From Sipunculus nudus (Eukaryota > Annelida > Sipuncula > Golfingiida > Sipunculidae), in contig CM049319.1 in NCBI GenBank assembly GCA_026874595.1, positions 39,129,473 to 39,193,472 of the forward strand: a stretch of DNA of 64,000 nt. Direction: 5' to 3'. Within the stretch, counting starts at the first letter, position 1. Each line of letters starts with the position of its first letter. Positions 39,691 through 64,000 of this stretch are shown here, in pieces. The translations under genes were made by a program, and so were the position numbers. The notes beneath the pieces are model-generated. The model did no database searches, was not told the origin of the DNA, and worked only from the letters and a program-made list of their open reading frames with translations.

Positions 39691-39729
39691 AGTGATATCA
39701 GAATTTAAACCCAAACCTTTTTACCTTTA

Positions 39730-39773
39730 ATATATATATATATGTTTGTATGTATGTATGTATGTATGTATTC
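39730..39773. repeat. (TA)n and (TGTA)n simple repeats
   Basis: A short TA run followed by TGTATGTATGTATGTATGTA, ending only about 12 bases before the acceptor of the exon at 39785. It may therefore affect the polypyrimidine region and branch-site spacing. Confidence 0.9.
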
Positions 39774-39784
39774 AATTTCTACAG

Positions 39785-40077
39785 GGTTTCCAGATCAGGG
39801 CTATGATGAATCAGAAGACAGCAGTGTTTTCTCTACACCTTCCCCCAAGACGAAATCTAGAAACAGCCAGCCCACACTGCCAATGGAAACGCAGCACGCT
39901 TCACTCAAACGGAAGAAGGTACCTGAAAAGCAGGAGACAGCTCGCACTCCCACCCTGGAGAAGAGCCAGTCACTGCTGGCAGAGCTGGCACAGCAGCGCC
40001 CTCTATCTCTGGTGCTGGCTTCTCAGTCTGAGGCTAACGTAATTGTGAATCCTAACATGGGCTCCCTCCAGCGACAG
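39785..40077 (+). CDS. ARHGAP39: ARHGAP39 exon before the MyTH4 domain
   Basis: A 293-nt exon with acceptor TTCAATTTCTACAG and donor GTGTGT, phase 1 in and phase 0 out, matching both neighbours. It encodes about 98 residues: FPDQGYDESEDSSVFSTP, then SPKTKSRNSQPTLP, a basic stretch LKRKKVPEKQE, and TPTLEKSQSLLAELAQQRPL. GYDESE resembles GYESD in the human protein in the same relative place (from memory). The segment is mostly disordered and acidic then basic, with a possible short helix (SLLAELAQQ). KRKK could act as a nuclear or membrane-lipid targeting signal (inference). Confidence 0.9.
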
Positions 40078-58016: not shown

Positions 58017-59280
58017 TTTCAATATAAACTTTTCATTGGTGTTTAGACTGATTTGGTTTTGTAAAAATTAAAATGTCTTTCCGGTCAGAAGCCTAAACAA
58101 AAAAGTTGATCCAGTATAACTGGCCAAGGACTGACTCTGATTGGATATTGTCCAGGAAAGATCATCAGACCTGATGTTGCTTCCACAGAGAACATTTACA
58201 CAACCATAAAAATAACCATCTCTTTTTTTGCTTAAATGAGCCAAACATTCAGTTCACCATGTGTCACTTTTCATATGATGTCATTACTATCTTTATCATC
58301 TCAATTTACTCTCCCTTTTTGAACTCCTTGACATATTTTTGTGAAAGTCAACTTGTGAAATGTCTCTACCAATACCTCTTTTATCTACCAACAATAAAAT
58401 TAAAATAAACAGTGACCTTGACCTTCATCATAAAGGTCAAATTAGGTGAAATTTAAATTTTTTGTGAACCCGATAACTTTTGAAGTGTCTCATAGTTTTT
58501 CCTCAAATTTGAAACACTAATTCTTTTTATAAAACTCCAAACACTGGTGACCTTGACATGGATCTTCAAGGTCAAATCAGCAAGAACAGAAATTATTTGT
58601 GAACGCTGTGACTTTTGAAGAAGTCTGAATTTACTCCCTTCATGTTTATGCACAATATACGCTCTCCATCAAACTATATTTTGCAAAACCATCCAACATG
58701 TCAATGTGCCCTACTAAGCATATTTACAAAGCTGCACTGGGGAGGGGAGAAATCATATTGTTTTTGCCTCCAAAAACAAACCAATTCTAGTTAATATTCT
58801 TTATAATATTCTTTGATTATCTTGTAGACTAACACATAGGGAGGAAAAAGTTTTTGCTCTGAAAATAATTAATGAAATCACAAAGGAATTAATTTATTAA
58901 AAATTAATAAATGGTAACCACAGATTTGAAAGAAGTCTGTCCCATATATTGCTCACTTGAATTTAGGCTGTAGTTTTTTCACATTTCATGAAGAGCACTT
59001 AAAAAATAGAATTCTGCCATCTGTGTACATTCTGCATTAATGTGGGAGCTTGCTTACTATTCCATTAATGACACTTGTTAGTTATCACCAACTATATTGC
59101 TGTTATTCATAACATTTTATAGTAAGAAATATTTGTATTAGTTCTTACATATTTAGATGATTATTTCTTAATCCAGTTTATCTCTTAATTGTACCTTGTA
59201 TTTATGCTGTAACACATATCATAATTGAAATCTGATGGTGGAGGTGTTAACAGAAATGTTCCACAGTAGGTTTGAAGTAA
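58017..59280. other. Intron, one two-copy AGGTCA-bearing repeat
   Basis: No gene recognised. At 58405-58640 a unit of about 135 bp occurs twice (GTGACCTTGACCTTCATC and GTGACCTTGACATGGATCTT, each followed by TTTTTGTGAAC- or TATTTGTGAACG-type sequence and ACTTTTGAAG). TGACCTTGACCTT is AAGGTCAAGGTCA on the other strand. Confidence 0.5.
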
Positions 59281-59570
59281 TTAACAAAAATATTCTTCTG
59301 TAAGATGAAGTCTGTAACAAAAATATTCTGCTGTAAACATGAAGTAATAAACAAAAATATTCTTCTGTAAGATGAAGTCTGTAACAAAATATTCTGCTGT
59401 AAACATGAAGTAATGAACAAAAATATTCTTCTGTAAGATGAAGTCTGTTACAAAAATATTCTGCTGTAAACATGAAGTAATAAACAAAAATATTCTTCTT
59501 TAAGATGAAGTCTGTAACAAAATATTCTGCTGTAAACATGAAGTCATTAACAAAAATATTCTACAGTAAG
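59281..59570 (+). repeat. Minisatellite of alternating ~33-bp units
   Basis: Two related units alternate: AACAAAAATATTCTTCTGTA + AGATGAAGTCTGT, and AACAAAAATATTCTGCTGTA + AACATGAAGTAAT. There are about four A/B pairs, and diverged units continue to about 59700. Open frames on the minus strand reflect the repeat period, which is near a multiple of three. Confidence 0.9.
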
Positions 59571-59850
59571 GATGAATTAATTTCTGCTTAAGAAAAAGAT
59601 TGTAGAGTAAACATGAAGTCATAAACAAAAACATTCTGGACACAGTAATGGTGTAGACCTTAAGCTTAACAACAATATTCAGCTGTAAGGATTGATAAAA
59701 TCAAATGCATTCACACTCATCTTTGTTTCATTATGTTTGCAGGAGAAGGCGTTATAATTTTAATTCTTTTCACACATATTAGTGCATATTGATTAGGATA
59801 AATATTTAAGGATATACAAGAACAACATTTAATGAGTGTTATACCAACAG

Positions 59851-60030
59851 ACTTGGTCAGCACCGGTGAGCAGCGCGCCACCAGGCACTCTGACAGCAAT
59901 GCCTTGGTTAAGACACAAACCTCTGTCTGATAGTACCATTGAAAACTATGCCAGGGAACACTTCAGCTGTCATCGCCAAGGGCTGTTCCGAAAGAAAGTA
60001 TCCCTGGATATCATGATGGTGCACTCACAG
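59851..60030 (+). CDS. ARHGAP39: ARHGAP39 exon, MyTH4 amino-terminal segment, version A
   Basis: A 180-nt exon, phase 0 in and out, bounded by AGTGTTATACCAACAG (weak pyrimidine tract) and GTAACC. An in-frame stop lies just before the acceptor, so the exon must begin after 59835. Residues 1-29 are linker (TWSAPVSSAPPGTLTAMPW and so on). Residues about 30-60 read IENYAREHFSCHRQGLFRKK followed by VSLDIMMVHSQ. The first part matches human ARHGAP39 ([20 protein letters not shown]), the first helix of the MyTH4 domain, a microtubule-binding module in myosin tails. After VS it departs from the human SIANMLAW pattern and lacks the tryptophan, which the next exon supplies. Confidence 0.9.
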
Positions 60031-60850
60031 GTAACCATGTCACTGCGCCACCTGGTGATGTTTGTGGTTTGGTGCTTCACTTATAACAAAGGTGGTGGGT
60101 GGCTTTGTTTCATGTTTTGTATTCAACCTGCGTAAACCCTGACTCATCAGGGTCTGAAACCTAAGTGTCGAGATGGGGAGAGGATGACAGGCCGAGTGAA
60201 GACTCACATCTCATGTTGGTTATAAATGCTAGAGATTGCTGTAGTCAGGACACAGTCATGCTGCTGTTAATGTCAAATTATCAGGAGATCATCAGGAGAT
60301 TTTTAATTGAGCAAGTATCGATAGTGTTTATAAAGTTAAAGGTATTCATCGAGTAATGATTTAAAAATCATTTTTGCTTATTAATGAAGTCATGTGTTTG
60401 CAAAAAATATCCCTACGACCTGTTACTCACAGAAAGCTATTAATAAAAAAGGACCATGTGATATAAAGAACTGTTTTTCTAGCATATCATACAGAATGTC
60501 CCCATCAGAATGTGTCATTGAATGAATTTGAGATTGTGCTGACATGCAATTGTCTCACTGTAAATAGAAAATACTGTGATGCAGCATGCACCCTAGATGT
60601 TCTATGTAATGGTTCAATTAATTGGACTCCGCTGTTAAACTTATGTGGATGTCTTTACAGCAGTAAACCTTTCATTTGTTCAGTTCTACAGTAAACTCTA
60701 GCATGTATAATGAACACTGAGAACTGTTGCTCAGTGTATATACCATGCTGCTACCTGTTGGGGTTTCCCAGGGGTACTGGTAATGTGGTGTCTTGCCTTT
60801 GTGTCACCTCTTGACTCATGCTTTCTCCTTTACTCTTCTGTTGGCTATAG
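60031..60850. other. Short intron between MyTH4 exons A and B
   Basis: An 820-nt intron with no recognised mobile element. The frame of exon A stays open for 35 codons past the donor, so retention would end the protein there. The acceptor side reads TTACTCTTCTGTTGGCTATAG. Confidence 0.6.
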
Positions 60851-60946
60851 ACGGAGATCTCATATGCACAAGAGAATCTGAATCGTCACAAGAAAGGGTT
60901 GCTGGGAAAAAGTGTTCCCATTACTAACATGCTGGAGTGGACCAAG
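60851..60946 (+). CDS. ARHGAP39: ARHGAP39 exon, MyTH4 amino-terminal segment, version B
   Basis: A 96-nt exon, phase 0 in and out, between TTGGCTATAG and GTAAGC. It encodes 32 residues, TEISYAQENLNRHKKGLLGK followed by SVPITNMLEWTK. YA.E....H..GL..K.V....M aligns without gaps to version A (9 identities in 31, plus many similar residues). ITNMLEW corresponds to human IANMLAW, the start of the second MyTH4 helix, so this exon joins naturally to the rest of MyTH4 expected right of the window. The two exons look like an old tandem exon duplication. Whether they are spliced together or alternatively cannot be told from sequence. Confidence 0.9.
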
Positions 60947-60954
60947 GTAAGCTG

Positions 60955-61099
60955 TTTATGTTGACTGACCTCAGGTATACAAGTTTATGTTGACTAACCT
61001 CAGGTACATGAGTTTATGTTGACTAACCTCAGGTATACAAGTTTATGTTGACTAACCTCAGGTATACAAGTTTATGTTGACTAACCTCAGGTATACAAG
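60955..61099 (+). repeat. 29-bp tandem repeat next to a splice donor
   Basis: Five copies of TTTATGTTGACTAACCTCAG + GTATACAAG, starting eight bases after the donor of exon B. Four of the five contain CAGGTATAC (the other CAGGTACAT), each a fair match to a splice donor. Confidence 0.93.
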
Positions 61100-61752
61100 T
61101 TTCAGCTTCATCTTCACTTGGCTTCAATAATCTCTTACAACAAGGAGTATTGAATTTAATTATTCACTCACTTTATTTGCTGAAGCTTAATACATTGTTT
61201 ACAAGCTTATGCAGAGATCAGCTTAAATATTTTGATGTTCCGCTACAGGGAGAAGGGGGGGGGGAGGACACAAGTACTAGAAGCCTAGCTGGCATTATTT
61301 ACTAACTAGCATATTTCATTACCAACTACACACACAAAGATCCAGATCCTCATCTTTTCCTGTGTGTGTGTGTGTGTGTGTTCACCTGTAAATACCATCC
61401 TGGGAAAAAAATCTGTAGATAGGGAAAATGGTAAGAACTAGGTAAAACCTCATTGTGGTAGAGTAAGAAAGAACTTTTGTGTGTTCATAATTTTGAAAAC
61501 ACTACCACTCAGTGTACAATTTTCAAGTTACATTCACAATGTTACAAACATACCAAGTTTTATGAAAAATACCTAGTATTTCATCCTTTACAATAAAAAT
61601 GAGAAATGAAAGCATTACGTTGCACCATGCATATTGGCTGGGAAGAAAAGTGAGGTTATGATGGCTCATCCCTTACTTTCCTAATGTGATTTCCTCCTGG
61701 TGGAGGTGGGGGTGCTTATTACAGGTGGGGAGCTTGTTACGTCAAATACAGT
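61100..61752. other. Intron with simple repeats
   Basis: It holds a run of ten or more Gs (about 61254-61264) and a (GT)n run (about 61362-61381). No gene recognised. Confidence 0.6.
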
Positions 61753-64000
61753 ATTATATTGACTCTCAGGACCAGATCCCTTGGGCATACAGAATAAATA
61801 TTATCCTTATATTGACTCTCAGGACCAGATACCTTGGGCATATAGAATAAATATTGTCATTGTATTGGCTCCCAGGACCAGATACCTTGGGCATACAGAA
61901 TAAATATTATCCTAATATTGACTCTCAGGACCGGATACCTTGGGCATATAGAATAAATATTGTCATTGTATTGGCTCTCAGGACCAGATACCTTGGGCAT
62001 ACAGAATAAATATTATCCTTATATTGACTCTCAGGACCAGATTCCTTGGGCATATAGAATAAATATTGTCATTGTATTGGCTCTCAGGGCCAGATCCCTT
62101 GGGCATACAGAATAAATATTATCCTTATATTGACTCTCAGGACCAGATTCCTTGGGCATATAGAATAAATATTGTCATTGTATTGGCTCTCAGGGCCAGA
62201 TACCTTGGGCATACAGAATAAATATTATCCTTATACTGACTCTCAGGACCAGATACCTTGGGCATATAGAATAAATATTGTCATTGTATTGGCTCTCAGG
62301 GCCAGATCCCTTGGGCATACAGAATAAATATTATCATTATATTGACTCTCAGGACCAGATACCTTGGGCATATAGAATAAATATTGTCATTGTATTGGCT
62401 CTCAGGACCAGATACCTTGGGCATACAGAATAAATATTATCCTTATACTGACTCTCAGGACCAGATACCTTGGGCATATAGAATAAATATTGTCATTGTA
62501 TTGGCTCTCAGGGCCAGATCCCTTGGGCATACAGAGTATATATTATCCTTATATTGACTCTCAGGACCAGATACCTTGGGCATATAGAATAAATATCGTC
62601 ATTGTATTGGCTCTCAGGACCAGATACCTTGGGCATACAGAATAAATATTATCCTTATATTGACTCTCAGGACCAGATACCTTGGGCATATAGAATAAAT
62701 ATTGTCATTGTATTGACTCTCAGGACCAGATACCTTGGGCATACAGAATAAATATTATCCTAATATTGATTCTCAGGACCGGATACCTTGGGCATATAGA
62801 ACAAATATTGTCATTGTATTGGCTCTCAGGACCAGATACCTTGGGCATACAGAATAAATATTATCCTTATATTGACTCTCAGGACCAGATACCTTGGGCA
62901 TATAGAATAAATATTGTCATTGTATTGGCTCTCAGGGCCAGATCCCTTGGGCATACAGAATAAATATTATCCTTATATTGACTCTCAGGACCGGATACCT
63001 TGGGCATATAGAATAAATATTGTCATTGTATTGGCTCTCAGGGCCAGATACCTAGGGCATACAGAATAAATATTATCCTTATACTGACTCTCAGGACCAG
63101 ATACCTTGGGCATATAGAATAAATATTGTCATTGTATTGGCTCTCAGGGCCAGATCCCTTGGACATACAGAATAAATATTATCCTTATATTTACTCTCAG
63201 GACCAGATACCTTGGGCATATAGAATAAATATTGTCATTGTATTGGCTCTCAGGACCAGATCCCTTGGGCATACAGAATAAATATTATCCTTATATTGAC
63301 TCTCAGGACCAGATACCTTGGACATATAGAATAAATATTGTCATTGTATTGGCTCTCAGGACCAGATCCCTTGGGCATACAGAATAAATATTATCCTTAT
63401 ATTGACTCTCAGGACCAGATACCTTGGGCATATAGAATAAATATTGTCATTGTATTGGCTCTCAGGACCAGATCCCTTGGGCATACAGAACAAATATTAT
63501 CCTTATATTGACTCTCAGGACCAGATACCTTGGACATATAGAATAAATATTGTCATTGTATTGGCTCTCAGGACCAGATCCCTTGGGCATACAGAATAAA
63601 TATTATCCTTATATTGACTCTCAGGACCAGATACCTTGGGCATGTAGAGTAAATATTGTCATTGTATTGGCTCTCAGGACCAGATCCCTTGGGCATACAG
63701 AATAAATATTATCCTTATATTGACTCTCAGGACCAGATACCTTGGGCATGTAGAGTAAATATTGTCATTGTATTGGCTCTCAGGACCAGATCCCTTGGGC
63801 ATACAGAATAAATATTATCCTTATATTGACTCTCAGGACCAGATACCTTGGGCATGTAGAATAACTTTTGTCATTGTATTGGCTCTCAGGACCAGATCCC
63901 TTGGGCATACAGAATAAATATTATCCTTATATTGACTTTCAGGACTGGATACCTTGGGCATGTAGAATAAATATTGTCATTGTATTGACTCTCAGGACCA
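61753..64000 (+). repeat. 53-bp minisatellite with alternating A/B monomers (106-bp dimer)
   Basis: Two monomers of 53 bp alternate: A = TATTGACTCTCAGGACCAGA + TACCTTGGGCATATAGAATA + AATATTGTCATTG, and B = TATTGGCTCTCAGGACCAGA + TCCCTTGGGCATACAGAATA + AATATTATCCTTA. About 42 monomers are visible and the array runs off the right edge. The A/B alternation is kept almost without exception, so the amplified unit is the dimer. It lies in the intron after MyTH4 exon B. The 53- and 106-bp periods are not multiples of three, and no long frame crosses it. Confidence 0.95.

Follow-up and report, generated by a model that had tools for sequence, protein, structure and literature searches.

Proteins of the ARHGAP39/Vilse type have an N-terminal pair of WW domains. 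Mouse Arhgap39 is described in PMC6220574 as a gene of 13 exons, the seventh of which is in-frame, encodes 31 residues of the MyTH4 domain, and is found in isoform 1 and missing from isoform 2. Isoforms 1 and 2 that are verified in humans, like the verified rat isoform, also lack exon 7, which is described as an alternative exon of which the function is not known (PMC6220574). A more general arrangement (e.g. PMC9013439, PMC9741552) is that of tandem duplicated mutually exclusive exons, which are adjacent, homologous and of one phase. Here we describe a window of 64,000 nucleotides from Sipunculus nudus (the whole stretch of DNA that was analysed), in which two adjacent exons, A and B, precede the MyTH4 core of a gene of this family. 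The pair shares adjacency, likeness and phase with mutually exclusive exons, but its members differ in length, and the mammalian use reported for this place is skipping or inclusion (PMC6220574).

Two related exons in an ARHGAP39-type gene

Judged by its domains, the gene is a RhoGAP of the ARHGAP39/Vilse type, with a MyTH4 domain followed by a RhoGAP domain. The latter, near the C terminus, was recognized by Pfam with 115.1 bits (PF00620; cut-off 24.5), and the former with 84.6–85.4 bits in all three spliced forms (PF00784; cut-off 27). The best stretch of the MyTH4 model begins in exon C and the hairpin described below lies outside the model, so that A and B are indistinguishable by Pfam. 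Six exons, C to H, were found downstream of exon B; their phases are consistent, the last of them contains a stop, and together they encode 359 residues. Exon C starts 208 bases past the window end (position 64208), in the next 10 kb, where it follows CCCAG and begins DQIQKPMIRTNDKMVKKEAPEIF. A provisional human ARHGAP39 sequence, in which the letters before IENW were contaminated by the window itself, agrees with the gene exon by exon, at 62% for exon C and at 73% for exons G and H. At the other end of the window lies just the final part of one WW-like exon (bases 3–62), which agrees at 85% over 20 residues with the provisional human protein. Between D and E the provisional human protein also has a linker of about 32 residues, for which an exon was sought and not found.

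A search of the animal's own genome with the A-B-C peptide (E up to 10) returned five rows, exons C, A and B and two weak ones elsewhere (E 0.095 and 3.9), so that nothing points to another copy of the gene. The exon C peptide found no relative among prokaryote contigs (78 pattern stretches) and viral contigs (17), collections that hold no animals and in which misses are uninformative. As a separate observation on the assembly, nine COX1 matches of near-equal score are present on contigs C60, C61, C62, C66, C72, C74, C75 and C89 (two), with stop-free frames of 577–578 codons in the standard code; they may come from bacterial contigs or represent copies within the assembly.

Table 1. Features of the window around exons A and B (a slash marks the splice border)
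Feature	Position	Strand	Description
Upstream coding open frame	39709..40077	+	Ends at donor CAG/GTGTGT, phase 0; 5' edge provisional
Exon A	59851..60030	+	180 nt, 60 codons; 29-residue linker and hairpin copy 1; phase 0/0; open frame
Hairpin copy 1	59938..60030	+	31 codons, IENYAREHF...VHSQ; ungapped alignment with exon B
Intron A-B	60031..60850	+	820 nt
Exon B	60851..60946	+	96 nt, 32 codons, TEISYAQ...LEWTK; hairpin copy 2; phase 0/0; open frame; probable counterpart of mouse exon 7
Intron B-C, start	60947..64000	+	3,261 nt in all, ends past the window
29-bp tandem array	60954..61102	+	5.1 copies, immediately behind the exon B donor
53-bp array (106-bp dimer)	61753..64000	+	Runs on through bases 1–207 past the window; carries copies of the exon C 3' splice site

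Both exons have AG upstream and GT downstream: exon A lies between CCAACAG and the donor CAG/GTAACC, and exon B between GGCTATAG and AAG/GTAAGC. With a rough vertebrate matrix, the 3' and 5' sites of exon B score 8.2 and 11.0, and those of exon A 0.0 and 7.1. The acceptor of A (59831–59850) has a poor pyrimidine tract, and the acceptors of B, C and D score 8–12 on the same rough scale.

The last 31 residues of the two exons, IENYAREHFSCHRQGLFRKKVSLDIMMVHSQ in A and EISYAQENLNRHKKGLLGKSVPITNMLEWTK in B, align without gaps with 9 identical and 19 positive pairs and a total BLOSUM62 score of 41, and this repeat takes up 31 of the 32 codons of exon B. None of 20,000 shuffles of exon B scored as high at this fixed register. 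When whole A was compared with whole B at any offset, the best ungapped local score was 49, which none of 3,000 shuffles equalled. Helical composition is ruled out as the cause of the likeness by a control within the same gene, in which 31-residue windows from the 359 residues of exons C–H were compared with one another wherever they did not overlap; the best of these 44,551 pairs reached 15 against 41. BLAST by itself reports a weak match (E 0.016–0.047). The DNA of the two copies is identical at just 45 of the last 93 nt, most often at codon position 2 (20/31, with 12/31 and 13/31 at positions 1 and 3), which indicates that the duplication is old. The likeness is uneven along the repeat, with eight of the identities in the first 22 residues and a single one in the last nine, where it has nearly gone. 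No third hairpin copy was seen by tblastn in the 104-kb joined region, the next rows after A and B having E values of at least 0.36.

These comparisons show that exons A and B are diverged tandem copies of one small protein hairpin, exon B being best read as an old tandem copy of the last 31 codons of exon A. A preliminary description had proposed tandem duplicate exons of phase 0, ungapped over their last 31 residues with nine identities; the alignment and the shuffles bear this out, and the window pairs from the same gene add support to the duplication. It was also right in noting that A is without the tryptophan and B without the linker: the motif with the closing tryptophan is found in B alone, and the linker in A alone.

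Hairpin structure and vertebrate counterparts

Each copy is predicted to fold as a pair of helices. Single-sequence models, of low confidence, place helices at residues 3–17 and 24–31 of exon B (32 residues) and at 7–18 and 28–38 of a 40-residue piece with hairpin copy 1; the two pieces, modelled alone, have mean pLDDT values of 69.4 and 66.6 and are too short and too uncertain for a fold search. The earlier designation of the segment as a first helix is too narrow by these models, which give two helices per copy. Searches of the PDB with C+D, A-C-D and B-C-D gave myosins in 12 of the 12 matches listed for each, none of them named ARHGAP39. A-C-D and B-C-D scored nearly alike, the top chain giving 48.5 and 47.2 bits and 5ejr 43.9 and 45.8, and the canonical copy is therefore not discriminated by these scores. 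A+B alone matched no MyTH4 chain in the PDB and gave one row, 1jjr (E 0.0063), which is unrelated.

The canonical isoform of human ARHGAP39, in its provisional sequence, has the same order of MyTH4 and RhoGAP domains but a single hairpin instead of the two found here, which we take to end in IANMLAWSS. Its hairpin is A-like at the start and B-like at the end. Over the first 22 residues of the repeat, A agrees with the provisional human segment at 15 of 22 positions and B at 6 of 22; over the last nine, B (ITNMLEWTK) agrees at five and A (LDIMMVHSQ) at two. The first 22 residues of A joined to the last nine of B are thus nearer to the provisional human segment than either copy alone. The same split had been pointed out in the preliminary description and is reproduced in these counts with the provisional human segment. 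Six peptides of the provisional human ARHGAP39 sequence had no occurrence in the literature search, and none of the matches listed in a wide literature search mentioned ARHGAP39.

The closest described feature is mouse exon 7. Exon B, 96 nt long and of phase 0 on both sides, lies directly before exon C and in frame with it. Like exon 7 it is in-frame and belongs to the MyTH4 region, and the six exons after it equal in number mouse exons 8–13; it differs in having 32 codons against 31 residues (PMC6220574). The count of six would not match the mouse if a seventh exon exists between D and E. By place, frame and size, exon B is probably the counterpart of mouse exon 7, which would make the exon duplication described here a largely precedented case. 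The passages cited here do not term exon 7 a copy of exon 6 (PMC6220574).

Tandem arrays in the flanking introns

The introns on both sides of the exon pair contain tandem arrays. The intron before exon A holds a 67/133-bp array (59273–59576), the end of which is 274 bases upstream of A. Five units of the 29-bp array behind exon B contain CTRACCTCAG/GTA, in which an acceptor is followed directly by a donor, an arrangement that resembles zero-length recursive splice sites. The 53-bp array forms the end of intron B-C and was resolved by TRF as a 106-bp dimer with 21.2 copies up to the window end and 96% matches. Its unit contains the acceptor of exon C itself, CTCAG/GACCAGAT. When four spellings were allowed, 46 copies of this acceptor were counted, including the real one, from 61770 to 64208, at a spacing of 53 with a last step of 106. 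By the rough vertebrate matrix, the real acceptor scores 9.65 and the other 45 score 5.5–10.45, a single one of these equalling or exceeding the real site. From no upstream copy does an open frame lead into exon C; the 11 listed stop at codon 27. A search of the animal's own genome, which skips very common words, gave 23 rows, all inside the array. To judge from its unit, the array looks like the product of repeated duplication of 43 intron bases together with the first 10 exon bases, and one may ask how splicing selects the last among 46 similar acceptors.

Inclusion of exons A and B

We consider it likely, with some reserve, that exon A encodes the opening hairpin of the MyTH4 region and that exon B is an old copy of this hairpin, matching mouse exon 7 and used as an add-on exon. 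The frames A-C, B-C and A-B-C are all open. Exon A would supply the linker and the opening hairpin; with B included, two consecutive hairpins would precede the MyTH4 core, and with B skipped, one. Whichever exon precedes C would have to supply the end of the hairpin running into it. The tail of A is without the closing tryptophan motif and that of B has it, which points to inclusion of B as the rule in this animal. With B regularly placed between A and C, the tail of A would have been released from its role beside exon C and that of B kept. Because of this pattern of tails relative to the provisional human segment, together with the strong splice sites of B and the weak 3' site of A by the rough matrix, our preferred main form is A-B-C, in which both exons would be part of the main transcript; A-C may occur as in the mouse. 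A second hairpin would presumably alter the packing or the partners of the MyTH4 region.

Three other explanations were weighed. It is possible, but unlikely, that A and B form a constitutive ancestral stretch in which the hairpin is repeated, without any regulated choice in this animal; the skipping of exon 7 in mammals would then remove one period of the repeat, with borders that may lie nine codons away (after KVS and SVP). The composite of the first 22 residues of A and the last nine of B, nearer to the provisional human segment than either copy, speaks for this, and the splice sites of B are strong by the rough matrix. Both vertebrate introns would, however, have to differ by nine codons from those of this gene, and yet the number of later exons agrees with that in the mouse. 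Mutually exclusive use of A and B, by which one MyTH4 hairpin would be exchanged for another, appears improbable. Their likeness, their equal phase and the open frames of B-C and A-C are in line with it, and A could be skipped, its 3' splice site being weak by the same matrix. The two exons are nevertheless unequal in length (180 versus 96 nt, or 60 versus 32 codons), where similar lengths would be expected; the choice of B would lose the linker and that of A the tryptophan motif, and the published mammalian pattern is one of skipping or inclusion (PMC6220574). Taken together, the distribution of linker and motif and this mammalian pattern speak against mutual exclusion. The preliminary description had offered two options, inclusion of both exons or their use as alternatives: the former is the one favoured here, and the latter is disfavoured if it means mutually exclusive exons. 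Convergence of two amphipathic helical pairs would account for the low DNA identity and for the modest E values of BLAST, but we regard it as very improbable in view of the shuffles and of the window pairs of the same gene, none of which approached the observed score, and of the phase-0 donor that ends both copies.

Under the preferred reading, with B as an add-on copy of the hairpin of A, a further step can be put forward tentatively, as a possibility about which we have more doubt than confidence: the doubled hairpin may be an ancient regulated cassette, its exon pair already present in the common ancestor with vertebrates and its second copy retained in frame since then. Whether B is included would then decide if the MyTH4 region of this Rac/Cdc42 GAP carries one hairpin or two, and the two-hairpin form, as the default in this animal, would have let the tail of A decay. 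That the pair predates the split from vertebrates rests on the match in place, frame and size. If exon B is not the counterpart of mouse exon 7, the locus would represent one more tandem exon duplication. If it is, the exon would be old and born as a copy of the exon preceding it, and the function of a two-hairpin MyTH4 region would be worth testing in the brain and in other tissues in which ARHGAP39 acts.
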